64,000 nt of DNA, taken from Coleofasciculus sp. LEGE 07092 (GTDB taxonomy: Bacteria > Cyanobacteriota > Cyanobacteriia > Cyanobacteriales > Coleofasciculaceae). A program made the translations under genes and the position numbers. Position 1 is the stretch's first letter. The number at the start of each line of letters is the position of its first letter. Positions 6,841 to 46,154 of the stretch are shown in pieces. Under the pieces are notes generated by a model. It searched no databases. It was not told the DNA's origin and was given only the letters and a program-made list of their open reading frames with translations. The stretch spans positions 62,001 to 126,000 of the forward strand of contig NZ_JADEWY010000001.1 of the NCBI RefSeq assembly GCF_015207375.1, written 5' to 3'.

Positions 6841-8478
6841 TTAAGCTCCCTTATTTATCGAGGCTTCATAAATAGGATATTTGCCATACTCCCCTAATTT
6901 TAATAACTCAATTTGGAATTGTTGATTGCCACGATTAAATTTTCGTGTTTCCACACCTTCTTCAGGAGGTTGGCACTTACGATAGGGATAGCACACGTAA
7001 ATAAACTTTGGCTGCCCCTGTTCTATTAAAGCTGTACCTAATTTAACCAAATCCTGACTGTTTTCTGCTAAAAAGAATACCTTATTTTGGCTCAACCCAG
7101 GTTCTAAAGCCTGAGCCACAAATTGATGAGACATAGCAATTGTATTAACGGGCTGCTTTTGCAAGAATTGGATAGCAGGTAAAATCCCTTGGTGATTTTG
7201 CTGTAAGTAAACGGTTCCAGCATAGGTGTTTTTGTAAGTTACAAGAATCAACAACATAGACAGAACACCTAGAGTTCCATATTTTAAACTAGAGCGCTGA
7301 GTTTGCCAGATTAATTGCAACTCGTTAACACTCATCAAGACAACAATTGGAATGAGGATTAACAAGAATCTCGCTCCCCATTGCTTTCCACCAGCAATCA
7401 GACCCGCTGTACCAACTGGAACGATCACAGAGACACCCACAACAAAAACTAAACAGATGAGATAAATGAGGATGAGTCTTGGTGTTAATTTTACCGTTCT
7501 CATCACTAGAGCTAGCCCTAAATATAAAACCGGGAAAAAGGCAACTTGAAAATACTCAAAAAATGCATAACCTAATCCTTTAAAGTTTTCCCAAGCATCT
7601 TTTAATTTATCAATTAAGGATAAATCTTCGACGATTTGAATAGCATGAATTCCTAGAGGATGACTATAAATAACTTGATTAGATACAAAAAATAGTACAA
7701 CCGTTACAATTAGGCTAGCTAGAAAAATGAACTTATGGTTAGCCAAAAAAGTTAACTGATTTAAATGAAGGGGTTTGTCTGCCCAATTGAATTGAGGAGT
7801 ATTGGCTAAAGCTATACCAGCAACGATTACAAAGACAATTGCACTCAGACAAAGAAACTCAGGTCGCAACCAAACAGACAACCCAATTGAAACTCCACTG
7901 AATACAGCCTCTCTTTTTGATAAACCCTCTGACTGTTTGGGAATTAGCAGTAGCGATAGCCCATAGAACGAAAGTGCTACGGCTAAAGTGTGTTCCCAAT
8001 ACATGGCACTGTACATCGACAAGGGTGAAGCAAAGATGAGAATAAATAGAGCAAGTGATGTACTAATTGGGGAGAATTTTAAACGGCGACACGCGAAGAA
8101 AAAATTTAACCAAATTGCCCAGGTAGAAACCAGAGGAATGATATAAAGACCTCGGTAGCCAAAAAGGGCATGAAATGGTGCAGTAATCAAAGGAAATGTA
8201 TAAGGAAACGTTATGTAATGTCGATTTTCTAAGTGATAGACAAAGGGTTCTTCAAAAGGGTACAAGCCATTTTCCCAAAGGCTACGCACCCAACTTTGGG
8301 GAGGTGGAACTAAGTCAACTCGAAACTGACCACTACTCAACTGTTGGGCTAATAAGGCTTTCAGACCGGCATCACCACTAAAGAAAACTCCATCGGGAAT
8401 TTGCCCTTGTAAATATAAAGAAAATAAAACACCACACAAGATAACAATTAAAGGAAGGCTGTATGATTTGATTGTCAT
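6841..8478 (-). CDS. Polytopic membrane protein, probable GT-C glycosyltransferase
   Basis: A 545-residue protein with about ten to twelve membrane spans and a soluble C-terminal segment. An early loop has VFFSGDAGLKALLAQQL (about 31-47), with the acidic residue expected of GT-C enzymes, and WEHTLAVALSFYGLSLLLIP lies in mid-protein. It probably transfers a sugar from a polyprenyl donor outside the membrane. It starts 33 bases from, and divergent to, a plus-strand TTG; the true start of the plus-strand gtrB-like gene is 90 bases away. The shared spacer therefore likely holds both promoters. Assignment rests on topology and motif, not on a search. Confidence 0.7.
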   Translation of the reverse strand: MTIKSYSLPLIVILCGVLFSLYLQGQIPDGVFFSGDAGLKALLAQQLSSGQFRVDLVPPPQSWVRSLWENGLYPFEEPFVYHLENRHYITFPYTFPLITAPFHALFGYRGLYIIPLVSTWAIWLNFFFACRRLKFSPISTSLALFILIFASPLSMYSAMYWEHTLAVALSFYGLSLLLIPKQSEGLSKREAVFSGVSIGLSVWLRPEFLCLSAIVFVIVAGIALANTPQFNWADKPLHLNQLTFLANHKFIFLASLIVTVVLFFVSNQVIYSHPLGIHAIQIVEDLSLIDKLKDAWENFKGLGYAFFEYFQVAFFPVLYLGLALVMRTVKLTPRLILIYLICLVFVVGVSVIVPVGTAGLIAGGKQWGARFLLILIPIVVLMSVNELQLIWQTQRSSLKYGTLGVLSMLLILVTYKNTYAGTVYLQQNHQGILPAIQFLQKQPVNTIAMSHQFVAQALEPGLSQNKVFFLAENSQDLVKLGTALIEQGQPKFIYVCYPYRKCQPPEEGVETRKFNRGNQQFQIELLKLGEYGKYPIYEASINKGA

Positions 8479-8567
8479 GGTCTGGTGAAACGTTTTAAAA
8501 AGAAAACACCTTGAGGGAGTACCCTATCTCAGAAAGAGGATTAGTAACTCAATATAGACGTTTGACG

Positions 8568-9542
8568 ATGCCCATTGATTTAAATCCTGTAGAACTCTCG
8601 GTAGTTGTACCACTTTACAATGAGGAACTCAACATTGATTACCTGTTTGAGCGACTCCTTTCCGTGCTGGATGGAATGAACATCAGTTACGAGATTGTTT
8701 GTGTCAATGATGGCTCTAAAGACAACACACTACAGCGTTTAGTTGAATACCATCATCGTAACCCAGCGATTAAGGTCGTCAACTTGTCCCGCAACTTTGG
8801 CAAGGAAGTTGCCCTGACTGCTGGAATTGACTACGCTAGGGGGGCTGCTGTCATCCCTATTGATGCTGACCTCCAAGACCCGCCAGAATTAATCAAGGAA
8901 TTGGTGGCAAAATGGCGCGAAGGCTATGATGTGGTTTATGGTACAAGGCGATCGCGCCAAGGTGAAAGTTGGTTCAAACGCTGGACAGCGAACGCCTTCT
9001 ACCGCACTATCGGTCAGATGAGTCGCGTACCCATTCCCCGCGATACTGGTGACTTTCGCTTGCTAGACCGCCGTGTAGTGGAAGTCCTCAAGCAAATGCC
9101 AGAACGGACGCGGTTTATGAAGGGGATGTTTGCTTGGGTGGGTTTCAATCAAACGTCTATTCTCTTTGACCGGGAACCCCGCCTCAAAGGGGTGACGGCG
9201 TGGAACTATTGGAAGCTTTGGAATTTTGCGATTGATGGAATTACCTCCTTTAGCTTTGTCCCGCTGAAAATTTGGGGTTACGTTGGCATTATAATATCGT
9301 TATTTTCCTTAATTTATGCCACTTTTTTAGTCATTCGCACGCTGATTTCAGGGATTGATGTTCCTGGTTATGCCTCTATTATGGTGGCTGTTCTCTTTTT
9401 GGGAGGGATTCAGCTTCTAACTTTGGGTATTATTGGGGAATATTTGGGTCGTGTCTATGAGGAAGTTAAGGGACGACCTCTTTATTTAGTTCGAGATTAC
9501 TACGGTTTTGAGAAGAAGCAGCCGGCTGATGAGGAAACGTAA
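8568..9542 (+). CDS. GtrB-like polyprenyl-phosphate glycosyltransferase, copy 1
   Basis: A 324-residue family 2 transferase ([53 protein letters not shown]). Two C-terminal membrane spans follow (about residues 230-300) and the end is [27 protein letters not shown], a hallmark of the GtrB/ArnC group. It makes polyprenyl-phosphate hexose at the cytoplasmic face. The open frame runs back to a TTG at 8511, but the ATG at 8568 gives the usual N-terminus. A close paralogue lies at 10413-11378, with a TVP38/DedA-like gene between them. Confidence 0.88.
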   Translation: MPIDLNPVELSVVVPLYNEELNIDYLFERLLSVLDGMNISYEIVCVNDGSKDNTLQRLVEYHHRNPAIKVVNLSRNFGKEVALTAGIDYARGAAVIPIDADLQDPPELIKELVAKWREGYDVVYGTRRSRQGESWFKRWTANAFYRTIGQMSRVPIPRDTGDFRLLDRRVVEVLKQMPERTRFMKGMFAWVGFNQTSILFDREPRLKGVTAWNYWKLWNFAIDGITSFSFVPLKIWGYVGIIISLFSLIYATFLVIRTLISGIDVPGYASIMVAVLFLGGIQLLTLGIIGEYLGRVYEEVKGRPLYLVRDYYGFEKKQPADEET

Positions 9543-9589
9543 AACTCTACTTCCCCCATTCCCTATTTTAAAGCTAGGAGACTTGCTTA

Positions 9590-10294
9590 GTGTTCAATTT
9601 TAAAAATGGTATTTTTCTTCTCACCATTATCTGTATTATTGCCACAGGTATAGGAGTTTACCTGTTAGGAGGTATCGACCAAGAACAATTGCAAGTTTGG
9701 CTGAAACAAGCGGGTATCTGGGCACCCATTATTTATATCGTCCTCTATACAGTAGGAACAATATTAATATTGCCTTCAACGCCACTCAACCTCAGCGGTG
9801 GTGCAATTTTTGGTGCTGGGTGGGGGACGCTTTGGACGAGTATTGCTGCGGTAATTGCCGCGATAGTAGCATTTGCCTTTACCCGCACGGTGGGACGGGA
9901 GGTGATGGCGAGAAAATTAGCCGGACGCTGGGAAGCCATTGATGCCGAGATGCGTCAGGGGGGCTTATTTTATATGTTTGCCATCCGTCTGCTGCCGATT
10001 ATTCCCTATGGAATCGTCAATTTTGCAGCGGGTTTGACTTCGATTCGTTTCCGAGATTACCTAGTGGGTACGCTTCTCGGCACTGTTCCGGGAATCCTGC
10101 CCTTTGTCATGATGGGTTCGGGGTTACAGGCACTCAAAAGCGGTGATGTTATGCCTTTAATGTTCGCTTTGGCGTTGACGGGAATGCTAGTTGGCGGCGC
10201 TACCTGGTATCGACGCCACCGCCAGTCTCCTCAGAAGGCTTTAGAAGAAATTGAGCGATCGCGTTCTTCAAATTCTGGTGAGGATGTTAAGTAG
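9590..10294 (+). CDS. TVP38/TMEM64 (VTT/DedA-like) membrane protein
   Basis: A 234-residue membrane protein of the VTT/DedA superfamily. It has an N-terminal span, the re-entrant-type segments LILPSTPLNLSGGAIFGAGWGTLW and RLLPIIPYGIVNFAAGLTSIRFRDY, and further spans to about residue 205. A GTG start at 9590 has GGAG 9 bases upstream. Some DedA-superfamily proteins recycle undecaprenyl phosphate across the membrane (established for other members). Its place between two polyprenyl-phosphate glycosyltransferases makes a lipid-carrier role attractive, but that is inference. Confidence 0.85.
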   Translation: MFNFKNGIFLLTIICIIATGIGVYLLGGIDQEQLQVWLKQAGIWAPIIYIVLYTVGTILILPSTPLNLSGGAIFGAGWGTLWTSIAAVIAAIVAFAFTRTVGREVMARKLAGRWEAIDAEMRQGGLFYMFAIRLLPIIPYGIVNFAAGLTSIRFRDYLVGTLLGTVPGILPFVMMGSGLQALKSGDVMPLMFALALTGMLVGGATWYRRHRQSPQKALEEIERSRSSNSGEDVK

Positions 10295-10295
10295 T

Positions 10296-10382
10296 ATGAG
10301 CGGTGTTTTGGACTACTTACAACAAAATAGCGTCAAGGCTATGATGTTATTTGTGCAATTGAGCGATCACCTCAGAGAGTAA
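10296..10382 (+). CDS. Possible 28-residue small protein
   Basis: An ATG two bases after the TVP38 stop opens a 28-codon frame (MSGVLDYLQQNSVKAMMLF...). GAGG lies about 12 bases upstream, inside the end of the TVP38 gene. The predicted peptide is amphipathic with a short hydrophobic centre. It could be a translated leader for the following gtrB-like gene or a chance frame; nothing beyond position and spacing supports it. Confidence 0.2.
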   Translation: MSGVLDYLQQNSVKAMMLFVQLSDHLRE

Positions 10383-10412
10383 TGTTAGCTGACATCTTGC
10401 AACCGATCAATT

Positions 10413-11378
10413 ATGCAGCCAAAATATTCCTTTATCATTCCCATCTACAACGAAGAAGAAACACTCCTTGAACTGTATCGTCGGGTCAGTGCTATAGCGG
10501 ATCGCATGGATGATTTAGTCGAAATTATTTTAATCAATGATGGTAGTCAAGACCAATCTTTAAAAATAATCCGAGAATTTCATCAGCAGGATCAGCGAGT
10601 GTGCTACCTCAGTTTTGCACGCAACTTTGGTCATCAAATTGCTGTGACGGCGGGTCTAAATTTTGTGCGGGGTCAGGTTATTGTCGTCCTTGATGCCGAT
10701 TTACAAGATCCACCGGAGTTAATCCCAGATATGGTTGAAAAGTGGCGGCAAGGGTATCAAGTGGTCTATGCGCAGCGAATCAAACGTCGGAAAGAGAGTT
10801 GGTTCAAGCGCTTCACTGCCTATTCATTTTATCGCATCCTCAAGTACCTAGCTGAGGTGGACATTCCCACAGATACAGGGGATTTTTGTTTAATGGATCG
10901 GCAAGTGGTTGATGTGCTTAACTCCATGCCAGAGTGTAACCGCTATATTCGAGGACTGCGGTCATGGGTTGGCTTTCAGCAGACAGCTATTCGATTTGAA
11001 CGTGACTCGCGCTTTGCGGGAGAAGTAAAGTACACATTCGGCAAATCCTTAGGATTAGCGGTGAACAGTTTAGTCTCGTTCTCGAAAGTACCGTTACGAC
11101 TTTCCACTTATATTGGGTTGCTATCGGCTGCATTAGCGTTATTTATGTCGGTGTTAGTATTGTATTGGCGCTTGACTGAACCGGATTCCCCCTTAACAGG
11201 ATTTGCAACGATTGCGATGGCTATTTTCTTTCTAGGTTCAGTGCAGCTTATTAGCATCGGTATATTAGGTGAATACATTGGGCGAATTTATGAAGAAGTA
11301 AAAGGCAGACCGCTTTACACATTAGCCGAAGTGGGTGGATTTGATAGCCACCTGAAATTTTATAAAAATCAGCGATGA
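10413..11378 (+). CDS. GtrB-like polyprenyl-phosphate glycosyltransferase, copy 2
   Basis: A 321-residue paralogue of the gene at 8568-9542, with the same order of motifs: [57 protein letters not shown], two C-terminal membrane spans and [24 protein letters not shown]. It is expected to load a sugar onto polyprenyl phosphate. Divergence from copy 1 in the donor-binding half suggests a different sugar or a different carrier pool. It probably shares a transcript with the TVP38-like gene 118 bases upstream. Confidence 0.88.
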
Positions 11379-32902: not shown

Positions 32903-32935
32903 AAGAACCCCCGTCTATGCAAGAGCGGGGAGTTT
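32903..32935 (-). terminator. Probable rho-independent terminator of the chorismate synthase-like gene
   Basis: Read on the minus strand, AACTCCCCGCT pairs with a GACGGGGGTT arm around an approximately 11-base loop, and is followed by a TTCTTTC run. It lies directly after the stop codon of the gene at 32935-34425 and before pipX, so it would insulate pipX from upstream transcription. Confidence 0.5.
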
Positions 32936-34425
32936 CAATAACTCACAGCTTGAATTGCAGCTAACTGAGCTTGAGCTTTATAGAGAGACTCATACCATTC
33001 CTTTTCAGGTTCGCTGTCGGCAACAATGCCTGCCCCCACTTGTCCCCACACACTATTGATCGCTGACGGGGAACTGTTGAGGGGGTGATTGCGGCTGTTT
33101 AGGACTGCCTCATCTATTTTAAACAAGAGGGTGCGAATTAAAATATTCAAGTCCAAGTTGCCGCGCCAGTCAAGATAGCCGCAGGAGCCGTAGAACAAGC
33201 TGCGACGCATAGGTTCAAGTTCTTCAATAATCTCTAAACAGCGCACCTTCGGGCAACCTGTAATCGTGCCACCAGGAAACAGGGCGCGAATTAGCTCAAC
33301 GGCATCACACTCAGCACGCAGGGTGCCAGTAATGTTGCTGACTAGGTGCATAACATGACTGTAGCGCTCGATCGCCAACAGTTCGCTAACACGAACTGAT
33401 CCCCACTCGCATACCCGTCCTAAGTCGTTGCGCTCTAAATCGACGAGCATGATATGTTCGGCTCTTTCCTTGGCATTAGCCAGCAAGTCTTGCGCCAGTT
33501 GCCTGTCGGTTTCAGGGGTAGCACTGCGCGATCGCGTCCCAGCAATCGGTCGGGTTTGCGCCGTGCGCCCTTGTAGCTGTACTAGTCGTTCGGGAGAACA
33601 GCTTATTACATCACCCCAAGGGGTATGCCAGTAACTGGCAAAGGGAGAGGGATTAATTTGTTGCAACGTGCGGTAAATCGCCCAACTATTCGCTGAGGTA
33701 GTGGCTTCAAACCTCAAGGAAAGATTTGCTTGAAAAATATCGCCAGCTTGAATATACTTTTTAGCTTGGACAACGGCAGCTTCGTAGTCAGCTTGGGAGG
33801 TAAGGAATGTGAGAGGGGGATGGGGAGAGGGGGAGACTTCGGCGTGACCCTTCGGCAAGCTCAGGGCGGAGACGCTCAGTCGAACGCTGGGGAGATGAAA
33901 AGAAGGGGATGGAGCTTCTAGATGTTGGTGAAGTTGGTTGAGTTGAGCGTCGCTAGTAGCGGCTAACCACAAGACTTGCTGGCAGTGATCGAGGACGGCA
34001 AAGGCTGCGGGTTCGTACCAGAAGGCGACGGGGAAGGGTAGGGGATCGGGTTTAGTGTAAGGCAACCGCTCGATCTCCCACGCTAAATCGTAGCCTAGCC
34101 AACCCAGCCAACCTCCCGTGAATGGCAGGTGAAGGGGTGGGTTCAACGGCTCTTGATCGGCTTGAGAAGAAAGGAGACGGCGCAATAGAGGCATAATTTT
34201 GCCCACGGGTGGTGTCCAAATCCGAGGGTGTCCCTGGAGAAGGCGGGGCATTCCAGCACAGATAGAGTATTGAGCGAGTTGGGGTTGATCTTGAGGTGTT
34301 GGATAGGGACTTTCGAGCAGAGTCGCGATCGCGCCAGAATTCAAAAATAGCTTTTCAAATATCTCAGAACCCGTGCGATTTTCTAGGGGAAGCGATCGCC
34401 AATGCCACGGTTGCAGCTTTGTCAT
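32935..34425 (-). CDS. Anthranilate/aminodeoxychorismate synthase component I family
   Basis: A 496-residue chorismate-binding enzyme. Signatures are AGDIFQANLSLRFEA, SCSPERLVQLQGRTAQTRPIAGTRSR, ERAEHIMLVDLERNDLGRVCEWGSV, YSHVMHLVSNITGTL and RALFPGGTITGCPKVRCLEIIEELE. It makes either 4-amino-4-deoxychorismate (PabB, folate) or anthranilate (TrpE). PIAGT, not PIKGT, is the TrpE-type form of the catalytic loop, yet the protein is not obviously the main TrpE; PabB remains possible. Between the N-terminal and catalytic domains (about residues 180-200) there is a stretch encoded by an in-frame palindromic repeat. Confidence 0.85.
   Translation of the reverse strand: MTKLQPWHWRSLPLENRTGSEIFEKLFLNSGAIATLLESPYPTPQDQPQLAQYSICAGMPRLLQGHPRIWTPPVGKIMPLLRRLLSSQADQEPLNPPLHLPFTGGWLGWLGYDLAWEIERLPYTKPDPLPFPVAFWYEPAAFAVLDHCQQVLWLAATSDAQLNQLHQHLEAPSPSFHLPSVRLSVSALSLPKGHAEVSPSPHPPLTFLTSQADYEAAVVQAKKYIQAGDIFQANLSLRFEATTSANSWAIYRTLQQINPSPFASYWHTPWGDVISCSPERLVQLQGRTAQTRPIAGTRSRSATPETDRQLAQDLLANAKERAEHIMLVDLERNDLGRVCEWGSVRVSELLAIERYSHVMHLVSNITGTLRAECDAVELIRALFPGGTITGCPKVRCLEIIEELEPMRRSLFYGSCGYLDWRGNLDLNILIRTLLFKIDEAVLNSRNHPLNSSPSAINSVWGQVGAGIVADSEPEKEWYESLYKAQAQLAAIQAVSY
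33848..33890. repeat. Dispersed repeat inserted in frame in the chorismate synthase-like gene
   Basis: CCCTTCGGCAAGCTCAGGGC and the following GGAGACGCTCAGTCGAACGC have the look of a short palindromic repeat common in cyanobacterial spacers. Here it encodes about 14 residues (roughly SVSALSLPKGHAEV) in the interdomain linker and keeps the frame. Confidence 0.55.
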
Positions 34426-34523
34426 AGTTTAATAGAATGGCACACCTCAAAATTCGTGCCAAAACTGTATGAGGATAAGCAAAAGGGAAATATAACGCTT
34501 CAGCTCAATCGCTAGGATTTAAC
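34426..34523. promoter_or_regulatory. Divergent promoter region
   Basis: A 98-base spacer between the start codons of the chorismate synthase-like gene (minus) and the CHAT exoprotein (plus). It must carry leaders for both. No clear ribosome-binding site is visible before the GTG of the exoprotein (nearest purine run is AGGA at about 34513-34517). Confidence 0.4.
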
Positions 34524-37500
34524 GTGAAAAAAGTTACTCAATCACTGGTCGCTATTGGCTGCATCGTCACCATTACCTCAAAGCCTCTGCAAGCACAACT
34601 GATTATACCTGCATCCGATGGTGCTGGTACGACTATCACCGCTGATGGCAACCGCTACGACATCAATGGTGACACCCTGTCTGGAGACGCGGCTAATCTT
34701 TTTCACAGTTTTGAGCAATTTGGACTAAATTCAGGTCAGATTGCCAATTTTATCTCAAATCCTCAAGTTCGCAATATTCTGGGACGGGTTGTTGGGGGTA
34801 GCCCCTCCATTATTGATGGTCTCATACAAGTTACTGGGGGTAACTCTAACTTATTTTTACTCAACCCAGCAGGCATCGTCTTTGGCTCTAATGCCCAACT
34901 CAATGTGCCTGCTTCTTTTATGGCTACGACTGCCACGGGTATTGGTTTTGGCGATAATCATTGGTTCAATGCCTTGGGTGAGAATGATTATCAAAACTTA
35001 CTCGGCACTCCCACTCAGTTTGCTTTTGATGTAGCTCAAGTAGGAAGCATTATCAATGCCGGTAATCTCGCGGTATCCCAAGGGCAGAATTTAACCTTAC
35101 TGGGTGGCAATGTTATTAATACTGGACAATTGAGCGCCCCAGGAGGGAATATCCTGCTTGCTGCTGTACCTGGTGAAACGTTGGTGCGGATTAATCAACC
35201 TGGAAATTTACTAAGTCTGGAAATTGAACTGCCAAGGGACAACGAGGGGCAGCTCCTGCCAGTTACGCCTCTAGATTTACCCGGTTTGCTAACGGGAACT
35301 GTGGGAACTGTGGAGACTGGATTAATTTCCAATCCTGATAACATTGTGCAGCTCGCTAACTCGGGTACAACTCTATCAAATGAGGCAGGAACAGCTATTG
35401 TTTCGGGATCTATTAAGGCTTCAATCCCAAATCAATTAATTGAGGCTAATGTCAATATTTTTGGGAAAGTCGTTGGACTATTGGATGCCAATATCAATGG
35501 CAAGATAGCTTTGCAAGCCAATAATGACATCACGGTTAATGACAATATTGTTTCTGAGAACATTGATGGCCTAGAATTTTTGGCAGGTCGGAGTATTATC
35601 CTCAATGGCACTATTGAACTAGACGGTGGCAACTTTAGTGCCAAGATTAATGATGAGAATGCGATCGCACTTCAACGAGAACCCGGAACCGCCCAGTTTG
35701 TAATGACTCCCGGTTCACAGATTGTCACCAACGGCGGTAACGTGACAATTGAGCCTGGAATATTTGGTGGCAATGGAGTTGGAGAGGTGCGTTTAGATGG
35801 AGCGACTATTAATTCTGGTACGGGCAATATTCAGATTAGAGGTACGGGAGGCGTAGGTAGTAACAGCAATCCTGGCATTTTGGTTCGCAATGGTAGTGTG
35901 GTGGAAGCGATCGGCAATGGAACCATAACCTTAGAAGGGATCAGCGGTTTTGGGACAACAAGAGACAACGATGGGATAAGGATTCAGGGTCAAGGCTCCC
36001 TAATTTCTTCGGTGAATGGAAATATCAGTCTGACAGGCACGAGCAGAGCCGTGATCGGGAGTGGAACGTTGAATAACGGCATTTCGCTTCTTGAAGGTGG
36101 TGTAGTGGAATCGACTGGAATAGGGACGATTATCCTAACAGGTAGTGGCGGTGCTGGGAGAAGTGACCAGGATGGTATAAGGGTTGTGGGCGAAGGCTCC
36201 GGCATTTTTGCAGTGGATGGAACTATCATCCTGATTGGCACAAGCGCTGGAACTGGAATCAAGAGTCAGGGTATTTCGCTTTTTGACAATAGTGCTGTAG
36301 AAGCAACCGGAAAGGGGAGCATTACTATAGATGGCACTGGCGGAATCGGAACTGATGAAAATGAGGGGATAAGAATTGATAACGCAAGCGTGTCTTCATT
36401 TGATGGCAATGTCAATCTGAAGGGAACTGGCGGGGCTGGATCTGGAATTGGTAACGATGGCATTCAGCTTTTCAACGGTGGCATAGTAAAAACTACTGGA
36501 ATGGGAACGATTTCTCTGGAAGGCAACGGCGGATCTGGGGCGGAGGGATCAAACCATGGCATTTTCCTGTTCCGGGGTGGGGTTGTGGAGTCAACTGGAA
36601 CAGGGCTGATTACCCTGACAGGTATCGGCGGATCTGGAGGAGAGAATACCAATAGAGGAAGTCAGGGGATACGAATTGACAGAAACGGCTCAAGGGTGAG
36701 TTCTGTCAATGGGGATATCCACCTGATGGGTAGGGGGGGAACTGAGCCTGACACGTTCAATCATGGTGTTGAGCTGATTGGTGGCGGGGTAGTAGAAGCA
36801 ACCGGAACAGGGAGTATTCGTATTGAGGGTATTGCTGGCGGGGATAGGGATCAGAATCACGGGATTAGGATTCGAGATAAAAACTCTCGCGTCAGTTCCA
36901 GGGATGGCGATATCCGGCTGATGGGCATCGGTGACGGAATCGGCAGCGAAAACTATGGCATTGAGCTTTTTAAAGGGGGTGCGGTGGAAGCACTTGGCAC
37001 TGGGACAATTACCCTTGAGGGTACTGGTGCTAATGGTGCAGCAGGGATTAATTTGCGAGACGGCTTGATTAATCCTACAGGGGTAGGCAGTGGCACGATT
37101 ACCCTCAAAGCCGATGAAATTAATGTTACAGATGACTCAGAATTTTCTCACACCCCGCAAATCAGCGGCACAGGTATCCTCCAGTTACAGCCCCTTGACT
37201 CTAGTGTGGGTATCACTATCGGTGGCGCTACCGACGATAATCAGTTGAATCTGGATAGCAGCGAACTTAATTGGTTAACCAATGGGTTTGAACACATCTT
37301 CATCGGCGGCGAAAACGGCAGTGGTGCCATTACTCTAACTGGCGATATCATTTTCAATGACCCAGTTACTTTGCGATCGCCCTTCGGTTTAGGCTCAATC
37401 AACACCAGCGGGTTTAACCTTACCGGAGCAGACAACGCCTCCATTACCCTACTCGCCAACCAAAACATTACCACTGGCAACATTATCAATTCAGGTGGGG

Positions 37501-39596
37501 AGATTACCCTAACCAGTCAACTCGGTCAAATTGATACGAGTGTAGGTACAGTTGACACTAGCTCTACAAACGGTGATGGTGGAACTATAACGATTTCAGC
37601 CCACCAAGGAATTACAACTGGGGCAATTGACTCTAGTTCTAGCAACGGTAATGGCGGCAATATCACCCTTGAATCTAACGGGGATATCCAAGTGAGTTGG
37701 ATTAACACTGAAGGCATAAGGACTGGCGGTAGTGTGGATATCATAACTGAAGGTTTTTTCCAAGCTACTGACACCTTCACCGCTGCCAATGGCTTAACGA
37801 CTAGCATTTCCGCAATAGGCAACACTAGGGGGGGTGACATCACCATCCAACATGGGGGCAAGGGCGTCATTCCCTTTGATGTGGGAGATGCCACGACGAA
37901 TGGAACAGTGGGAAGTATCACCAATGGAAATTTCAGTATTGCCCCATTCCAATCCTTTCCCTTTACCCACAGAGAAGGGACGATTCAGATAGTCAGTGTT
38001 GAACCACCGATTAATTCGCCCAAACCCATTTCTGATTCTGTTCCTGTTCCTATCAACCAACCCCCAAAACCGATTCCCACTTATTCTGTTGACCCAAAAA
38101 TTCCTACCAGGATTAATGTTGATCTAGCCACTCCTGCCACTGAGCCATTGATCAATTCTCTTGATCTGAGCCAACCCTCAGAACATCGCCCTGCACCTCC
38201 AAATTTTATAGAAATCGCTACCCAGCAACCTTACACCTTCGACCAACTTGAGGAATTCTTCACCAGTCTATTTGAAAACGCTCTCGGCATCAGCGATACC
38301 TCTATCGTCACCCTCGAACAAGTCCGCACTACTCTAAACCAAGAGATTGAACAAGCCATTGGGGTTAAACCTGCAATCATTTATGCCTTTTTTGTGCCAA
38401 CAACCTTTCCTCCAGAGGAGAACTCAGACAATTCTGCCGCCCTACCTGAACCGGATAAACAGCAATCCTCTACTACTAGTTGGGAGTTCACTTCTCAAGA
38501 ATTAACCTCCACACAGAAGTCCACACTATTCGAGAAAAATCGACCGAATCTAGGCAACGACCAATTAGAATTGTTGCTTATTACCTCCCAAGGTCAACCC
38601 ATTCGACAGCGGGTTGGAGTGACACGCCAACAAGTTCTCCAAGTCGCTCAACAATTCCGCAGTGATGTTACTGATGTCGGAGACTCTCAGGGTTACTTGC
38701 CAACTTCCCAGCAGCTTTATCAATGGCTTGTGTCTCCCTTAGAAGATGCTTTACAAGCCAAAGAAATCAATAATCTTACCTTCATTTTAGACAAAGGTCT
38801 GCGCTCAATTCCCTTGGCTGCACTTCATGATGGACAACAGTTTATCGTCGAAAACTATAGTGTTGGGTTAATGCCTAGCCTCAGCCTTACGGATAATCGT
38901 TATGTAGACGTAAAGAATTTACCCGTCTTGGCGATGGGAGTCTCTCAATTTCGGGAGCAAAAAGCCTTACCTGCTGTGCCATTGGAGTTGTCTATCATTA
39001 CAAACCAGCTTCGGTCAGGCAAATCTTTTCTTAACGAGAGTTTCACCCTAGATAATCTCAAGCAAGCTCGCACTAAAAAGTCTTTTGGCATTATTCATCT
39101 CGCTACTCATGGGGAATTTGTCCCCGCTCAACCGAGTAACTCTTACATCCAATTATGGGACACCAAGCTGCCCCTTGCTCAACTGCGACAGCTCGGTTGG
39201 CATGACCCGCCCGTGGAGTTATTAGTATTAAGTGCTTGTCGCACTGCTGTAGGCGATGTAGAAAATGAGTTGGGATTTGCCGGATTAGCCGTGCAAACCG
39301 GAGTGAAATCAGTCTTGGCTAGTTTATTGTATGTCAACGACGAAGGGACACTGGCGCTGATGAGTGAGTTTTATCGACAACTGAGTCAACCGGACGTGAA
39401 AATTAAAGCTGAGGCGCTACGACGAGCACAAGTGGCGATGCTGAAAGGACAAGTGCGTCTGGAAGAAGGTCAACTCAAAGGGCTAGGTCAACTCAGCAGT
39501 ATTCCCTTACCGCCAGAAATGGCCGCACGGGTTAATCAAGATTTGTCTCATCCTTATTACTGGGCTGGTTTTACGATGATTGGTAGTCCCTGGTGA
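34524..39596 (+). CDS. Two-partner-secretion exoprotein with C-terminal CHAT protease domain
   Basis: A 1690-residue protein. Residues 1-25 are a signal peptide ([24 protein letters not shown]). Residues about 26-250 are a haemagglutinin/TPS secretion domain ([51 protein letters not shown]). Residues about 400-860 are beta-helix repeats of about 55 residues with GTITLEG, DGIRI and VEATG-like elements. A Pro-rich linker (about 1160-1210) precedes the CHAT domain, whose catalytic pair is His1529 (HLATHGEF) and Cys1572 ([11 protein letters not shown]). It should be exported through a TpsB-type outer membrane pore, which is not encoded nearby. The GTG start fits the signal peptide. It ends tail to tail with the DUF928 gene. 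Confidence 0.9.
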
Positions 39597-39616
39597 GCTG
39601 AGGGAGCTGGGGTAAT

Positions 39617-39636
39617 GGGGAGGAAGAAGTCTCCCC
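39617..39636. terminator. Possible terminator between convergent genes
   Basis: GGGGAG and CTCCCC enclose an 8-base loop in the 84-base spacer between the CHAT exoprotein and the DUF928 gene. The stem is short and no strong T run follows, so it is a weak candidate for a bidirectional terminator. Confidence 0.3.
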
Positions 39637-39680
39637 CGCTCCTCCGCTTACTCTGCCATCGGTACAACTGAACCCGTTAT

Positions 39681-40385
39681 TTACTCTTGCTCAAGCTCTT
39701 CTAAACCCATTGCTTTTAATAGGTTAGCCCAAGCTTCAGGTCGAGAACGAATCTGGGCTAAATCAGTTGAGGCATCGTACCAAATTTCATTATTAACATA
39801 AAGTCTGAGTTTCTCATCAAATGTCGCTGCCTGTAACTGGGTTTCTAGACCAGCTCTATCTACTCGTTGTATCAATCCTTGATGCCAAATGCGATCAGGT
39901 TCTAATGATTCTTGAGAGTCACAATACAGCATAAAAGTCCAGCGATACTGCTTGTTTTTCTCTAGAGGTTCAGCAGCGCTTGGAATACTAACGCTAACGA
40001 AACTGGGTGTTTCAGAAAGCTGAAAACGAGTTTCATAGACAAATTGCTTCTGTGAATCTTCTAGGGAAAATTTTACGGAGCTAATCGTACTGGTTTTATA
40101 GGGAATATAAAACCAAAACGTTGGATGTCCAGTCAGTGTAAATCCAGAAAAACCCGAGTCAGTAAGAGGCAATAAGGGTGTAAAAGGAATCTCCGTATTC
40201 TCACACGAACCACGGGTGCCTGCTGGTTCTCGTCCTTCAGGCGGCGGTTTTGGTGGTGGGTTAGGTCGGTCAGAAATAATGGTTCTGCTGGGGTTTAACT
40301 GTGCCTGTGCTGGTATCAGATAACTAGTCATATTAACCAGCACAACTAATGCCATTACTGGAAAAGTCGGCTTCAAATGAATCAT
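39681..40385 (-). CDS. DUF928 family exported protein
   Basis: A 234-residue protein with a signal peptide-like start (MIHLKPTFPVMALVVLVNMTSYLIPAQAQ). A Pro-rich segment (NPPPKPPPEGREPAGTRGSC) and the DUF928 domain follow (PLTDSGFSGFTLTGHPTFWFYIPY...VKFSLEDSQKQFVYETRFQL...YRWTFMLYC). Family function is unknown. Its start codon overlaps the stop of the CHAT-CHASE2 gene by 4 bases (40382-40385), which indicates translational coupling. It would act in the periplasm, on the same side as the CHASE2 sensor domain. Confidence 0.85.
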   Translation of the reverse strand: MIHLKPTFPVMALVVLVNMTSYLIPAQAQLNPSRTIISDRPNPPPKPPPEGREPAGTRGSCENTEIPFTPLLPLTDSGFSGFTLTGHPTFWFYIPYKTSTISSVKFSLEDSQKQFVYETRFQLSETPSFVSVSIPSAAEPLEKNKQYRWTFMLYCDSQESLEPDRIWHQGLIQRVDRAGLETQLQAATFDEKLRLYVNNEIWYDASTDLAQIRSRPEAWANLLKAMGLEELEQE

Positions 40386-42739
40386 AATTTAGCTCTATCT
40401 TTATCGCGTCTAAATGTAGTATCTTTTGCCACTATCGAGCTAGTCATCACTAAAGCTAATCCTGATGGAATAAGCGGTACCACAACACCTTTTTTTAATA
40501 ACAAAATAAAGCAACTTCCATAAAGAAAAATAAGTAAGGCGACCACCACTAGTCCTCGATTTAGTCGTGATCTAAATCGCCAGATCAGTATACCTCCCAC
40601 CAAAGACCAACTTCCAACCCAAACTGTATCACCCCAAAGCGACCAGAACTTCAAAATAAGGCGTTGATCTTCAATAGCACTGACGAATTGGCTCACCAGT
40701 TGAGCATGAAGTAGTAAGCCTCGTATTTCCTGGTTATACGGCGTAGTTAAATCATCTTTAGCGAGAGTTGGGTCGGTGACTCCAATTATAATAATGCGAT
40801 TTTTGACTAGGGAAGCATCCACTTGATTCGTCATCACTTCTTTGAGGGTGACTTGTTTCGCAATATCTGCAAGGGAGCTATAAGAACGATAATTTAGCAG
40901 TATTTGATGTCCATTAATGAGTTCTGGTTGTTGATAAAATCCTCTGTGAACTTTCAATATTTTAAATTCAATCGGACTAATTTCCCAGGAGTCTGTCGTC
41001 GGAAAATTAACAGAGTAATCTTTAGACTCTAAGTAATTGAGTGCCAGTTGAGAACTGAGGGCATAGTGTGCAGAACAGGGAGAATTATCGGCTGGCTCTA
41101 ATGCCAACAGATGACGACGAATAATGCCATCGGGGTCTTTAACCACATCCGTAAAACCAATATGCTTTCCTGAGACACCAGGAGGAGTTTGAATGCCAGG
41201 ATTTTTAGCACTACTGTGGAGACAAATCGGAATTATATGCTGATTTTGTTGCAAGTATTGAATTAAATCAGCTCTACCCTTTCCTTCTGGAATATCTCGA
41301 TAAATATCTAACCCAATACCTTGGGGTTTATACTCATCTAGCTTTTTCAACAGCCTCAGGAGCATCGCGTCAGTTAAGGGATAGTCATCCGCCAACTGTT
41401 CAATATCCTCTTTGGTGACTTTAACGATTAACAAGCGCTCATCTCGTTCTTCATTGGGTCGCAGTTGCATTAACTGGTCATAGGCTTTGAGTTCCCATGA
41501 CTGCAACAAACCCAATAATCGCCCTCCCATCACCAAACTAGTAACGGCAAAACTTGACAGCAACACACTCTGCCAACCACGCCACCACCGTCGAGTTGGA
41601 GTTAATTTCTTTTCTGGCGACTGGGTGGAGTCTGTTTGCCGTTCTGGTGTTTTGAGCAACTCTTGCCATCTGGGAGGGATTGCGGTTGGATTCTGACAAA
41701 TGACTGGCAACCATCTAGCACAGGGAAATTCGTCTTCTAAACTTTCTAGCCGTTCTCGTGCTTTCCGAACCGCTTTATAGAACGACTCGCCATCGGCAAA
41801 TGACCGCAGAAAATATTTGAGAAATTCCTGTGCTACCTGGTCTGATACGGATTCCCGCATGACAATAATTTGGGGAATCTGTAAAGCCGCTAGCTGCCGT
41901 GCTAATCCTAACCCATCACAGGAGTTAAAAATAGCTACCTGCAACCCTCCTGCGATCGCATATTTCAGGGCATTCTCTAACTGGAAAATCGTTAAACTTT
42001 CACTGGGGTTGATCTGAAAAAGCCCCGTTTCTCCCTGGGTTTGACTGTGACCTGCAAAAAATAGAATGTCCCAACCTTTTTCGTCCCAAAGGCACTCATT
42101 TAAATCCTGACGTTTTGGCTGTTCTAGCAAGACCAGATTAACACTGGGTAACGTTTCGAGTAATTGGCGATCTGCCTCGATATCAATCCCATCACTATTC
42201 CCCAGAACAGCTAAAATTCTAACTTGACCAGGGGGAGTAGAAGAGTGCCGTTCTACTTGCCATTCTGGGATACTTAACGAGACTTCAGCTTGACGGTAAT
42301 CTTCAAAGAAACTCCAAAGATGCCAGGGGAGTTGTCGCAGTTGTGTATCTTCAGTTTCAACAATCACCTGTATTTCTTCGGAGGGATGAAGGTGCGTCCG
42401 CAAAAACCGCTCAATGGGACGAAAGGAGTTAGAGTCTAACCAGTCATTCAGTTGTTTTGGGAGTTGCTGGCAAGTGTTCCAGAAATTAACTTCAGAAAAT
42501 CGACTTTCACACTCCTCTGAGTCTAAGATTTGAATGCGTTCAGACAAACCTAAGTCTTTGGAGCGGTTCCTGTAGAGTGATTGCCAGTTTTGGTGAAGTT
42601 CTTTTAACTGGGGGTTTGCAGTTAAACCGCCTTGTCGTTGTCCCTGTAAACGTCCATCGACATCATAAAGTTGAGCGGCGATCGAATGACAGCCGCTTCC
42701 TAAATTCCCACTGCCTAGTTTTAAGATGACTCGTTTCAT
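40382..42739 (-). CDS. CHAT protease-CHASE2 sensor membrane protein
   Basis: A 785-residue protein. The N-terminal region (about 1-150) is soluble. A CHAT caspase-like domain follows (about 150-345) with His231 (ILFFAGHSQ) and Cys274 (VAIFNSCDG). After a linker there is one membrane span (about 390-410), a CHASE2 sensor domain outside the membrane (about 415-690; AYDQLMQLRPNEERDERLLIV, GIGLDIYRDIP, IIIIGVTDPTLAKDDLTTPYN), and three C-terminal spans. CHASE2 usually feeds kinases or cyclases; here the cytoplasmic output is a protease. It is 20 bases downstream of the STAND NTPase gene and overlaps the DUF928 gene by 4 bases. Confidence 0.9.
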   Translation of the reverse strand: MKRVILKLGSGNLGSGCHSIAAQLYDVDGRLQGQRQGGLTANPQLKELHQNWQSLYRNRSKDLGLSERIQILDSEECESRFSEVNFWNTCQQLPKQLNDWLDSNSFRPIERFLRTHLHPSEEIQVIVETEDTQLRQLPWHLWSFFEDYRQAEVSLSIPEWQVERHSSTPPGQVRILAVLGNSDGIDIEADRQLLETLPSVNLVLLEQPKRQDLNECLWDEKGWDILFFAGHSQTQGETGLFQINPSESLTIFQLENALKYAIAGGLQVAIFNSCDGLGLARQLAALQIPQIIVMRESVSDQVAQEFLKYFLRSFADGESFYKAVRKARERLESLEDEFPCARWLPVICQNPTAIPPRWQELLKTPERQTDSTQSPEKKLTPTRRWWRGWQSVLLSSFAVTSLVMGGRLLGLLQSWELKAYDQLMQLRPNEERDERLLIVKVTKEDIEQLADDYPLTDAMLLRLLKKLDEYKPQGIGLDIYRDIPEGKGRADLIQYLQQNQHIIPICLHSSAKNPGIQTPPGVSGKHIGFTDVVKDPDGIIRRHLLALEPADNSPCSAHYALSSQLALNYLESKDYSVNFPTTDSWEISPIEFKILKVHRGFYQQPELINGHQILLNYRSYSSLADIAKQVTLKEVMTNQVDASLVKNRIIIIGVTDPTLAKDDLTTPYNQEIRGLLLHAQLVSQFVSAIEDQRLILKFWSLWGDTVWVGSWSLVGGILIWRFRSRLNRGLVVVALLIFLYGSCFILLLKKGVVVPLIPSGLALVMTSSIVAKDTTFRRDKDRAKL

Positions 42740-42759
42740 AGCTGTCTGCCGAGGGGCAA

Positions 42760-44586
42760 TCAGATCACAAACTCTTCTGTCATGCTAAACGCATCAAAAG
42801 CGACCTGGATAGTAAAATGCTCTGTTCGCTCACCTCGGAAGCGGGGCAGTTGAATGAAGTTATCCTGAGTTTGGGATTGTACTTCCCGTAAGATTTGCCC
42901 TGACTCATTGAGTAAACCCAGCTTCAGGTTAGCAGGTAGGGAGGTTTCTTCTCCCATGGGTTGAACCTGAACACGAATCCCAACTTTTTGGTCAGCCTCT
43001 GCTGCAATTGCCACTAACAAAGCCACAACTTGATTCTGAAATCGTTTTCCTATCTGAATCGGTTTAAACCGTTTCACCAAACCTTCTTGTCTGAGATGGT
43101 AAGTACTTCGCAGTCTTGGGGATGATTTTTGAGGTTTGGCACCTAAGAGAACTTCTACAGGTTGCCAACCTGTCTCAATGTTGTTATCAAACCATTGGCT
43201 GAGGTTAACAGGCAATTTCGTTGAGGGTGTTAACTCAATCGATTCTTCAATCTCTGGCAATGGGTAATGGGGTGATTCTGCGGTTGAAACATTGCCGCTA
43301 ATTTGGGCAACGAGTTGGTTGGTGATGTACTCCATCATCATTGGCTGGAGAGCGAAGTACGACTTAGCGCCTGCTTCAGTGGTTTCAAGGAGCGATCGCT
43401 GTCTTAGAGATGCCAGAATTTCTAAAAGTTCGGCTTGAGACAAGGATAAATTTAGACTCGTCTGTAGAGTTGAGAAGTCAACGGGTTTGTTTTCAATTGC
43501 CAGCCAGTAGAGTACTTCCTTTTCTAAATCTGATAAACGGTTAAACGATTGCCCTAACAACTCATCGATCTCCCCGAAAACCAGGGTTTCTTGCTCCAGA
43601 AACTCCGCAACATTACCATGGAACAACTCTCGAATAATTTTGGCAACCATTTTGAGAGCCGATGGATGACCCCGATACAGGGTTATTAATTCAGACCACC
43701 TTTCTTGACCAATCAGTCCCTCTGTCTCTAAAATTTCCTGTGCCTCGTCCTCCTTTAAGCCAGATAAGATGAATGAGCGCACCGGTGTGGTTTCACCCGA
43801 TAGTAACGTCACTTCTCGCGGATTTTCCCGACTCGTTATGATCACACAGCTATCATGGGATTCTTCACCCATACGCCGAAAAAACTCACCATAATGCTTA
43901 TAACCTTCTCGATAACGTCCGCTTAATTGATCATTTTGGAGAATAGCATCTGCACCATCTAGGACTATCAGACAGCGTGAGTTGCGCCAGCTCGTTAGCA
44001 GTTTTCCTAACAGTTCTGTGAGGGGTGGAGCTTGAGTGAGCGATCGCCAAATCACATAGTCAAAGTCCTCTTGAATCAGTTCTACCAGTTTTTTACACAG
44101 AACCGTTTTGCCAATACCTCTCATACCCCGTAGCACGACTAGTCGGCAACCTTGTTCCACAATCCATTGCTTGAGCGTGGCTAACTCTGCGGTACGACCC
44201 AAGAAACCCGATATATCGGGAGCTTCAACCAAATCTGAACAGGGCTGGCTTTCTTTAAGGTTTCTGTGTCTTCCTGGATCAAATAACACAGCTTCTTGAT
44301 GTCGCTGTATCTCAGATAAGGGTTCAGGAAATCTCCGTTCCAGTACAACCCGAAAATTCGTTTTACTAACCTCCTCGCCCAAGGCTTCTGACAGCAATTT
44401 CCATAACTTGGGACCAATATCTCGCATGAGGTAATTGGTGCTGTATTCAGACGTGTCAGCCATCTGCTCATAGGTCATACCTTGCCAGGTTCCCTGAAGT
44501 ATTCTCTCTTCGGGAGCGCTCAGGTGTCTTGCTGCCCTAGCCATAGCAGTGGCATCAACCAGTTTCAATGCTACGTCAATGTCCAT
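42760..44586 (-). CDS. HTH-STAND (NB-ARC-like) NTPase with DUF1822 C-terminus
   Basis: A 608-residue protein. Residues about 1-85 match the helix-turn-helix domain found at the start of many cyanobacterial STAND proteins (GTWQGMTYEQMADTSEYS, LWKLLSEALGEEVSKTNFR). The NTPase follows, with Walker A GMRGIGKT (Lys160), a Walker B-like CLIVLDGADAI and a winged-helix segment (about 340-410). Residues about 455-608 resemble DUF1822 (LSQWFDNNIETGWQPVEVLLG...FIQLPRFRGERTEHFTIQVAFDAFSMTEEFVI). STAND enzymes act as nucleotide-driven switches, often upstream of proteases or nucleases. It is the first gene of the operon with CHAT-CHASE2 and DUF928, 20 bases upstream. Confidence 0.85.
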   Translation of the reverse strand: MDIDVALKLVDATAMARAARHLSAPEERILQGTWQGMTYEQMADTSEYSTNYLMRDIGPKLWKLLSEALGEEVSKTNFRVVLERRFPEPLSEIQRHQEAVLFDPGRHRNLKESQPCSDLVEAPDISGFLGRTAELATLKQWIVEQGCRLVVLRGMRGIGKTVLCKKLVELIQEDFDYVIWRSLTQAPPLTELLGKLLTSWRNSRCLIVLDGADAILQNDQLSGRYREGYKHYGEFFRRMGEESHDSCVIITSRENPREVTLLSGETTPVRSFILSGLKEDEAQEILETEGLIGQERWSELITLYRGHPSALKMVAKIIRELFHGNVAEFLEQETLVFGEIDELLGQSFNRLSDLEKEVLYWLAIENKPVDFSTLQTSLNLSLSQAELLEILASLRQRSLLETTEAGAKSYFALQPMMMEYITNQLVAQISGNVSTAESPHYPLPEIEESIELTPSTKLPVNLSQWFDNNIETGWQPVEVLLGAKPQKSSPRLRSTYHLRQEGLVKRFKPIQIGKRFQNQVVALLVAIAAEADQKVGIRVQVQPMGEETSLPANLKLGLLNESGQILREVQSQTQDNFIQLPRFRGERTEHFTIQVAFDAFSMTEEFVI

Positions 44587-44717
44587 AGAACTTACCTAAA
44601 CCACACACTAGTTATGTTGATTGGTTGCATCAAGTTAAATTATATTAAAAGTTTAACATACTTCCATTATGGTGCGTTATACATACAAATATTAACAGTT
44701 ATTAGGAGAGTCTCACC
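44587..44717. promoter_or_regulatory. Divergent promoter region of the STAND operon and the TPR gene
   Basis: 131 AT-rich bases separate the two start codons. AGGAG (44705-44709) lies 8 bases before the GTG of the TPR gene. The sequence around AAATTATATTAAAAG (44637-44651) is the most promoter-like AT-rich stretch. No operator palindrome is evident. Confidence 0.45.
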
Positions 44718-45122
44718 GTGAAGAACTACATAGAAAATGAACTTGACAACCCCAAGAGCTGGTATTCCCAAGCCGAAATACTCTTTAACTTAGGTTGCTA
44801 CGAAGAAGCCCTTGCCAAATGTAACGAAACTTTAACGATTCAACCTGACCATTACACCGCTTGGGTCTTGCGAGGAAGCGCGCTGACTCATCTCAATTGT
44901 TACCCCCAAGCGCTTACCAGTTTTGAAAAAGCCCTGAAAATTCAACCGGATGACAAAACGGCATTACTCTTCAAAGGACTGGCGTTACATCATCTAGGTC
45001 GCTACAAATATGCCTACACTACCTATAACCAAGTTTTGGGAACTCAGAAGCCCTCAATCTGGCAAAAACTGATTCAACTATTACAGGGGTTAGTCCATCC
45101 CTCTGCTGTCAAATTGGGCTGA
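44718..45122 (+). CDS. Small TPR protein
   Basis: A 134-residue protein made of three tetratricopeptide repeats: SWYSQAEILFNLGCYEEALAKCNETLTIQPDHYT, AWVLRGSALTHLNCYPQALTSFEKALKIQPDDKT and ALLFKGLALHHLGRYKYAYTTYNQVL. A short basic tail follows. It starts at GTG with AGGAG 8 bases upstream. It is divergent from the STAND-CHAT operon; TPR proteins often accompany CHAT proteases, so it might be a partner, but no evidence beyond location supports this. It converges with the EcfT-like gene 51 bases away. Confidence 0.85.
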   Translation: MKNYIENELDNPKSWYSQAEILFNLGCYEEALAKCNETLTIQPDHYTAWVLRGSALTHLNCYPQALTSFEKALKIQPDDKTALLFKGLALHHLGRYKYAYTTYNQVLGTQKPSIWQKLIQLLQGLVHPSAVKLG

Positions 45123-45173
45123 AACAACGTAAATTGGTATTTTTATAGAGTCTGAACTATCAATTAAGCTTCA

Positions 45174-46154
45174 TCATCCCCAAGCCAGTCTAGCTCCCCA
45201 GAATACAATCAAACTGGCTATCGCTAGCCAATCACATCGACGTAGGCGTAGCTGATGCCACTGTACCCGATGTTCGTTTGGACTGGTAAAGCCTCGCACG
45301 GTCATGGCTTTAGCAATTTGCTCGGCTCTGAGGAGGAGATTTTCTAACAGCCGTTCTGAAACGATCAGCCAGACTTGTAAGCTTCTGCGAACCCCTAACT
45401 TTTTCCAGTTAATAGCGCGAGTGCGTACTGAACGAAATAAATTTTGTACTTCTTCTAGAACTAGGGGAATGAACCGCAGTGATAGGGTCAAGGTGAGGGT
45501 AATTTCAGTAACAGGAACCTTCAAACGCCGCAAGGGGCGCATCAAACTTTCTAACCCAGCCGTGATTTCTTCGGGAGCGGTAGTGAGTAAGAATAGATTG
45601 GTGCTGTAAATCAGGGTAAAGAGGACAGTGCTGACGCGAACGGCAAGATCTAAGGACCGACGAGTGATGGTAACGGGTCCAGCACTGAACAGTACATAGC
45701 GATAATCGGTGGGTTGAGGTCTAAGACTGGGTGGCTGGGTTAGGGAAGAGTCGGAAGAGTGCGATCGCCAACCAAAGGGATTGTACCAGGGATTAGGAGC
45801 TGGAGCAGTTTGGGTGGGAGATTGTTCGGAAAAGGTGAGTTCGTTCGGGGGAAGTCGTGATTGGTGGTTAAGGGCGAGTCCGTCTGGAGCGATCGCAGTG
45901 AGAACGAAGACGAAAAAGGACAGAGTTAGGAGCCAACCCATCTGCTGACGCCAGACACGCAACGGGATTCTGGCTGAGAGGGTAAGTAGAATTAACAGCA
46001 CCACCAGAGCCAGACGGCTGAAAGGATTTGCCAGCAGGGGAGCCGCTAGAAAGCTCATTAGCCAGATGAACTTCACTCTGGAGTCTAGATAATGCAGCCA
46101 AGTGATAGGTTGTTCCAGGTATAGCCCTAGGGGGAGCGATCGCAGTAAATCCAT
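45174..46154 (-). CDS. EcfT/CbiQ-family transmembrane protein
   Basis: A 326-residue membrane protein of the energy-coupling factor T family. It begins LGLYLEQPITWLHYLDSRVKFIWLMSFL, the typical first-span signature. The C-terminal coupling region has EITLTLTLSLRFIPLVLEEVQNLFRSVRTRAINW and LLENLLLRAEQIAKAMTVRGF, with the Ala-Arg-Gly-type motifs that contact the ATPases. Between spans is a Pro/Ser/Gln-rich insertion of about 60 residues (about 100-165). No S or A component is nearby, so its substrate is unknown. It lies downstream of der on the same strand. Confidence 0.85.
   Translation of the reverse strand: MDLLRSLPLGLYLEQPITWLHYLDSRVKFIWLMSFLAAPLLANPFSRLALVVLLILLTLSARIPLRVWRQQMGWLLTLSFFVFVLTAIAPDGLALNHQSRLPPNELTFSEQSPTQTAPAPNPWYNPFGWRSHSSDSSLTQPPSLRPQPTDYRYVLFSAGPVTITRRSLDLAVRVSTVLFTLIYSTNLFLLTTAPEEITAGLESLMRPLRRLKVPVTEITLTLTLSLRFIPLVLEEVQNLFRSVRTRAINWKKLGVRRSLQVWLIVSERLLENLLLRAEQIAKAMTVRGFTSPNEHRVQWHQLRLRRCDWLAIASLIVFWGARLAWG

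Follow-up and report, generated by a model that had tools for sequence, protein, structure and literature searches.

A CHAT-CHASE2 membrane protein of Coleofasciculus encoded between an HTH-STAND-DUF1822 NTPase and exported DUF928 and CHAT partners: a candidate envelope-sensing protease module

The closest described relatives of the locus analyzed here are the EACC2-caspase systems, proposed in eLife in 2021 (PMC8195603). In that proposal, a constant N-terminal alpha+beta domain and a caspase domain are followed by a variable C-terminus, with CHASE2 among the named alternatives; DUF1822 and ECF sigma factors are given as neighbors, and the proteins are filed under conflict and apoptosis systems. 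The same text places the ECF sigma neighbor in the majority, not all, of the systems, so that a sigma neighbor is not strictly defining for the class. A CHAT protease is also part of the type III-E CRISPR Craspase (Csx29-Csx30-CASP-sigma), in which the target cut by Csx29 is Csx30, a protein that inhibits an ECF sigma factor (PMC10028731), and HetF of Anabaena is a membrane-bound cyanobacterial CHAT protein (PMC8406250). The association of CHASE2 with DUF928 has been noted once, in Nostoc (PMC5587647).

The window (the whole stretch of DNA analyzed, 64,000 nucleotides of Coleofasciculus sp. LEGE 07092) carries a locus of five genes (Table 1), whose number, strands, and operon spacing in the list of open reading frames (ORFs) are those given in the first-pass annotation: 20 bases separate the STAND-DUF1822 gene from the CHAT-CHASE2 gene, which overlaps the DUF928 gene by 4 bases. 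In the same-family relatives G015, G008, and G001, the junction between the trpE-like gene and cbiQ is empty (about 100 to 205 bp) and sits within the run engA-cbiQ-trpE-pipX-pipY-sepF. Thus, all five genes probably arrived together, or else the relatives lost the whole set. Searches for attachment repeats at the segment ends returned no direct or inverted match of at least 9 bases, no clear compositional shift was seen between the segment (GC content, about 0.41 to 0.50) and its flanks, the ranges of which overlap, and promoter and terminator scans at the locus stayed near the shuffle level. The small TPR gene is divergent, as first described, and lies inside the segment, but none of the ORFs in the fetched surroundings of other STAND-DUF1822 genes matched it, and it was rejected as a conserved part of the module. 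In another genome, G006 (L208, G006:C1:6190000-6206000), the trpE-cbiQ junction holds a different insert, encoding a 951-residue protein with a CHAT-type C-terminus; the junction may be an insertion hot-spot.

Table 1. Features of the five-gene segment, in window positions
Feature	Position	Strand	Source or context
Module segment, nothing else inside	34426-45173		Between trpE-like (32935-34425) and cbiQ (45174-46154)
TPS exoprotein gene, 1690 aa	34524-39596	+	ORF list
Exported CHAT protease domain, residues 1393-1688, dyad H1529/C1572	38700-39587	+	
DUF928 protein gene, 234 aa, signal-like N-terminus	39681-40385	-	ORF list, Pfam
CHAT-CHASE2 membrane protein gene, 785 aa	40382-42739	-	ORF list, Pfam, model
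CHASE2 domain, residues 400-717	40589-41542	-	
N-terminal module "EACC2" plus caspase/CHAT, residues 1-365, dyad H231/C274	41645-42739	-	
HTH-STAND NTPase-DUF1822 gene, 608 aa	42760-44586	-	ORF list, Pfam
DUF1822 C-terminal part, residues 452-607, common to separate DUF1822 genes of other loci	42766-43233	-	
STAND NTPase, residues 128-430, Walker A GMRGIGKT (read from sequence), APAF-1/CED-4/NLR-like fold	43297-44205	-	
Small TPR protein gene, 134 aa	44718-45122	+, divergent	ORF list, Pfam

Within the CHAT-CHASE2 protein, Pfam places CHAT at residues 124 to 334 (E = 3e-12) and CHASE2 over the tabulated range (E = 2e-56). The structure model of this putative receptor (mean pLDDT, 88.8) consists of the CHAT part (residues 1 to 365), a helix (381 to 408), the CHASE2 domain, and three helices within residues 701 to 784; the predicted membrane helices are 381 to 408, 701 to 721, 725 to 750, and 756 to 784. 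This layout fits a cytoplasmic protease half and a periplasmic CHASE2 domain, in agreement with the first-pass view of a CHASE2 receptor that bears a protease on the predicted cytoplasmic side. The His-Cys dyad is kept in 47/47 rows of the CHAT-CHASE2 alignment, and that of the exoprotein is kept in 67/67 exported-type CHAT rows, so that the CHAT residues, whose lack of conservation would have refuted the first-pass proposal, are conserved in homologs; both dyads are intact, and both proteins are putative clan CD proteases. Many relatives of the receptor match residues 2 to 365 only, and one paralog in the host genome ends in Peripla_BP_6. A constant N-terminal part of this kind, joined to a variable C-terminus, is the layout given for EACC2-caspase proteins in PMC8195603, to which residues 1 to 365 are likened by description.

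Fold comparison aligned model residues 1 to 359, along their entire length, with the protease region of separase (Z = 23) and with Csx29 (Z = about 20 to 22), and residues 1 to 349 with DdvA (PDB 8rot and 8rw5; Z = 15.7), a membrane protein with a caspase-like fold region that the entry title calls a transmembrane anti-sigma factor, the likeness being one of fold only. Because the EACC2 and caspase parts together align with the two-part protease region of separase and Csx29, the EACC2 part may, instead of being a new fold, be the noncatalytic (pseudo-protease) half of a double caspase fold like that of separase. By sequence, neither the receptor profile nor the exoprotein had a match in the PDB. 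As a membrane CHAT protein of a cyanobacterium with a weak match to the HetF model, the receptor might also be taken for a HetF-like regulator of cell division or differentiation; however, its score against NCBIfam NF045509 is 22.8 bits compared with a curated cutoff of 1,200, its C-terminal domains are different, and HetF is drawn with CHAT, transmembrane, and TPR regions (PMC8406250). HetF membership was accordingly rejected, and a HetF-like role is highly improbable.

In a tree of CHASE2 domains, the window's protein sits in a supported clade made up of four proteins with CHAT and three with AAA_35; the larger clade around it also takes in further AAA_35 proteins and a single kinase. Elsewhere in the host genome, CHASE2 genes that adjoin DUF928 encode cyclase domains. 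Since CHAT occupies the slot that cyclases or kinases hold in these relatives, it is, judged from domain architecture, most simply the output of the CHASE2 receptor, and it is mainly because of this output swapping that a signal-regulated protease is proposed.

The common form of the system was surveyed in relatives of the CHAT-CHASE2 protein at 80 named genome loci, a set that leans to Nostoc-like genomes and includes some genomes several times. DUF1822 lies directly upstream of the CHAT-CHASE2 gene in 57/79 of the named loci, a sigma-like gene is the next one upstream of DUF1822 in 56/76 related loci, and DUF928 lies directly downstream in 62/77 named loci. The upstream sigma-like genes have weak Pfam matches to Sigma70 regions (E = 0.002 to 0.005). 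Gene-neighbor conservation in other genomes is far above chance, and the locus thus passes both refuting conditions of the first-pass annotation, a lack of such neighbors in related genomes and a lack of conserved CHAT residues. This common arrangement is the one proposed in PMC8195603, and the system class is thus already known; together with the published CHASE2-DUF928 association in Nostoc, this withdraws the earlier label of an undescribed system. What has hardly been described before is that the pairing between the receptor and exported partners is conserved: DUF928 and exported CHAT proteins find no mention in the part of PMC8195603 available. Among the Nostoc-type loci, L045, L048, L049, L078, and L108 have Peptidase_C39 ABC transporter-like (cluster c5) and cluster c9 genes nearby. 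At L057 (130-2706) and L072, the protein encoded upstream of DUF1822 is an 858-residue sigma-like protein of cluster c6, compared with a usual length of 220 to 230 residues.

The window departs from the common form. As in the described EACC2-caspase systems, a variable C-terminus and a DUF1822 neighbor are both present, but DUF1822 is fused to a STAND protein, and the ORFs and Pfam matches of the segment include no sigma gene, the place of which is filled by HTH-STAND. The DUF1822 match (E = 5e-23) is restricted to profile positions 178 to 370 of 370, and the front half of the family is therefore missing here. The locus is a rare variant in which an HTH-STAND NTPase, joined to the C-terminus of DUF1822, takes the place of the sigma gene and the DUF1822 front; its closest CHASE2 relatives (L127 and L128) are of the sigma form. 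In four other genomes (G036, G086, G135, and G084, where the locus is cut by a contig end), a full-length HTH-STAND-DUF1822 relative is encoded immediately upstream of the same protease, which upholds the STAND switch as a recurrent partner of the receptor, and some such relatives stand alone. In the STAND-type locus of G036 (L169, G036:C1:540000-558000, 8133-10495), the CHASE2 part is split over two frames, and this receptor copy may be broken.

Besides DUF1822, Pfam reports NACHT/NB-ARC in the window's STAND protein, and a fold test identified an NB-ARC/NACHT-type P-loop domain with the STAND fold. Structures resembling this part include NLRs, APAF-1, and CED-4, the last in its complex with CED-3 at Z = 20. 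CED-4 activates CED-3. As in the CED-4/CED-3 and APAF-1 apoptosomes, a STAND NTPase is paired here with a caspase-fold protease; unlike in the apoptosomes, HTH stands in for CARD, DUF1822 stands in for WD40, and the protease is membrane bound. The module might accordingly be an apoptosome-like suicide or antiphage system, in which the STAND protein would sense an invader or stress, oligomerize like CED-4 or APAF-1, and activate the membrane CHAT protease, leading to cell death or arrest. The matches to both apoptosome complexes, the intact dyad in a caspase-like fold, the listing of EACC2-caspase among conflict and apoptosis systems (PMC8195603), and the absence of the island from relatives all argue for such a system. 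However, the partner in most loci is sigma-like, not STAND, defense models (PADLOC) give weak partial matches only (BovA and PDC-S27), and CHASE2 receptors with DUF928 bear ordinary signaling outputs elsewhere in the host genome, so that a suicide system appears to be a minority possibility.

The interpretation that we favor, with evenly balanced confidence and in part by analogy, is that of an envelope-sensing module in which a regulated protease is the signaling output and acts on or with the STAND-DUF1822 partner. With the help of exported DUF928, and probably also of the surface exoprotein, periplasmic CHASE2 would read a cue from the envelope or from contact, and cytoplasmic CHAT would serve as the output domain in the slot of the cyclase, kinase, or AAA_35 of its relatives. 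The C-terminal domain of DUF1822 would be the feature by which a dedicated cytoplasmic partner is recognized. This partner would work with the sigma-like factor in the common form; in the rare form, DUF1822 would take the position usually held by the sensor of a STAND protein. Next, CHAT would most likely cleave the DUF1822 arm, or dock on it, and thereby switch on the HTH-STAND protein, which would then mount a transcriptional or defense response. The precedent is Csx29, which has the same double caspase fold and acts on a partner controlling an ECF sigma factor (PMC10028731); by analogy, CHAT may act on the DUF1822 partner, although Csx29 is RNA activated and soluble, whereas the window's protease is a membrane receptor. 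The signal could equally run in the opposite direction, with STAND activating CHAT as CED-4 does CED-3. The receptor usually keeps company with sigma-like and HTH proteins, which makes a transcriptional output no less likely than cell death, itself a possible outcome. If the favored interpretation is right, a caspase-like protease is one of the interchangeable outputs that an ordinary envelope receptor of cyanobacteria can carry, alongside cyclases and kinases, and is connected there to an NLR-like switch, a bacterial parallel to the caspase and apoptosome that is open to test. It would also give a first way into the function of DUF928 and DUF1822, for which literature searches returned almost nothing published.

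The exoprotein consists of a signal-like N-terminus, a TPS domain (residues 33 to 243; E = 1e-42), a repeat region, a Pro-rich linker, and the C-terminal CHAT domain (E = 1e-66), consistent with the earlier proposal that the second CHAT sits on an exported protein. Five ShlB-type matches to TpsB transporters were found in the host genome, none of them on the window's contig. The window's DUF928 protein matches its family at E = 1e-45. In the host genome, 11 of 15 DUF928 genes adjoin a CHASE2 gene or sit one gene away, and in six other genomes, 40/56 have a CHASE2 match no more than 6 kb away, compared with 1.1 expected if placement were random; DUF928 and CHASE2 genes are partners across the genome. 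Under the assumption, made in all these neighbor statistics, that genes are independent, although some are duplicates, exported-type CHAT lies within 5 kb of DUF928 in 11/31 cases in three genomes (1.3 expected) and within 7 kb in 4/15 cases in the host genome (P = 0.016, or 0.066 without the window). No exported CHAT gene was found near L127 and L128, and the exported CHAT partner is thus optional. The claim that two CHAT proteases encoded side by side are unusual had to be dropped: the host genome has 52 CHAT matches, and exported CHAT occurs beside CHASE2-DUF928 in many genomes.

Such neighborhoods raise the alternative of surface adhesion or contact sensing, in which the TPS-CHAT exoprotein would be the main product and CHASE2-DUF928-CHAT would monitor or regulate its export and processing. 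In addition to the enrichment in the three genomes, an exported CHAT gene directly follows DUF928 in 15/80 named loci (several of the CHAT neighbors examined have a signal-like N-terminus by eye), and in AAA_35-type loci, the neighbor is a convergent 1,700-residue TPS-CHAT exoprotein like that of the window. Conversely, most CHASE2-DUF928 loci are without an exported CHAT gene, and many TPS-CHAT paralogs of the host genome lie away from CHASE2, which makes the exoprotein unlikely to be the main product. A broader interpretation, speculative and rather doubtful, is that CHASE2, DUF928, and exported CHAT form a general two-sided cyanobacterial envelope relay: the outer protease and DUF928 would set or relieve CHASE2, the output (protease, cyclase, kinase, or AAA_35 ATPase) would be interchangeable, and here the inner protease would drive an apoptosome-like STAND. 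If true, such a relay would couple proteolysis at the envelope to a switch of the NLR type.

Two further loci of the host genome contain DUF928 genes in other settings. At L188 (C205:1-9000), three DUF928 genes lie in tandem, with no CHASE2 gene found adjoining. At L191 (C208:30000-46000), genes for a cyclase-CHASE2 protein, DUF928, and a 1,829-residue TPS-CHAT exoprotein run in one direction, the same envelope set as in the window with a cyclase output.
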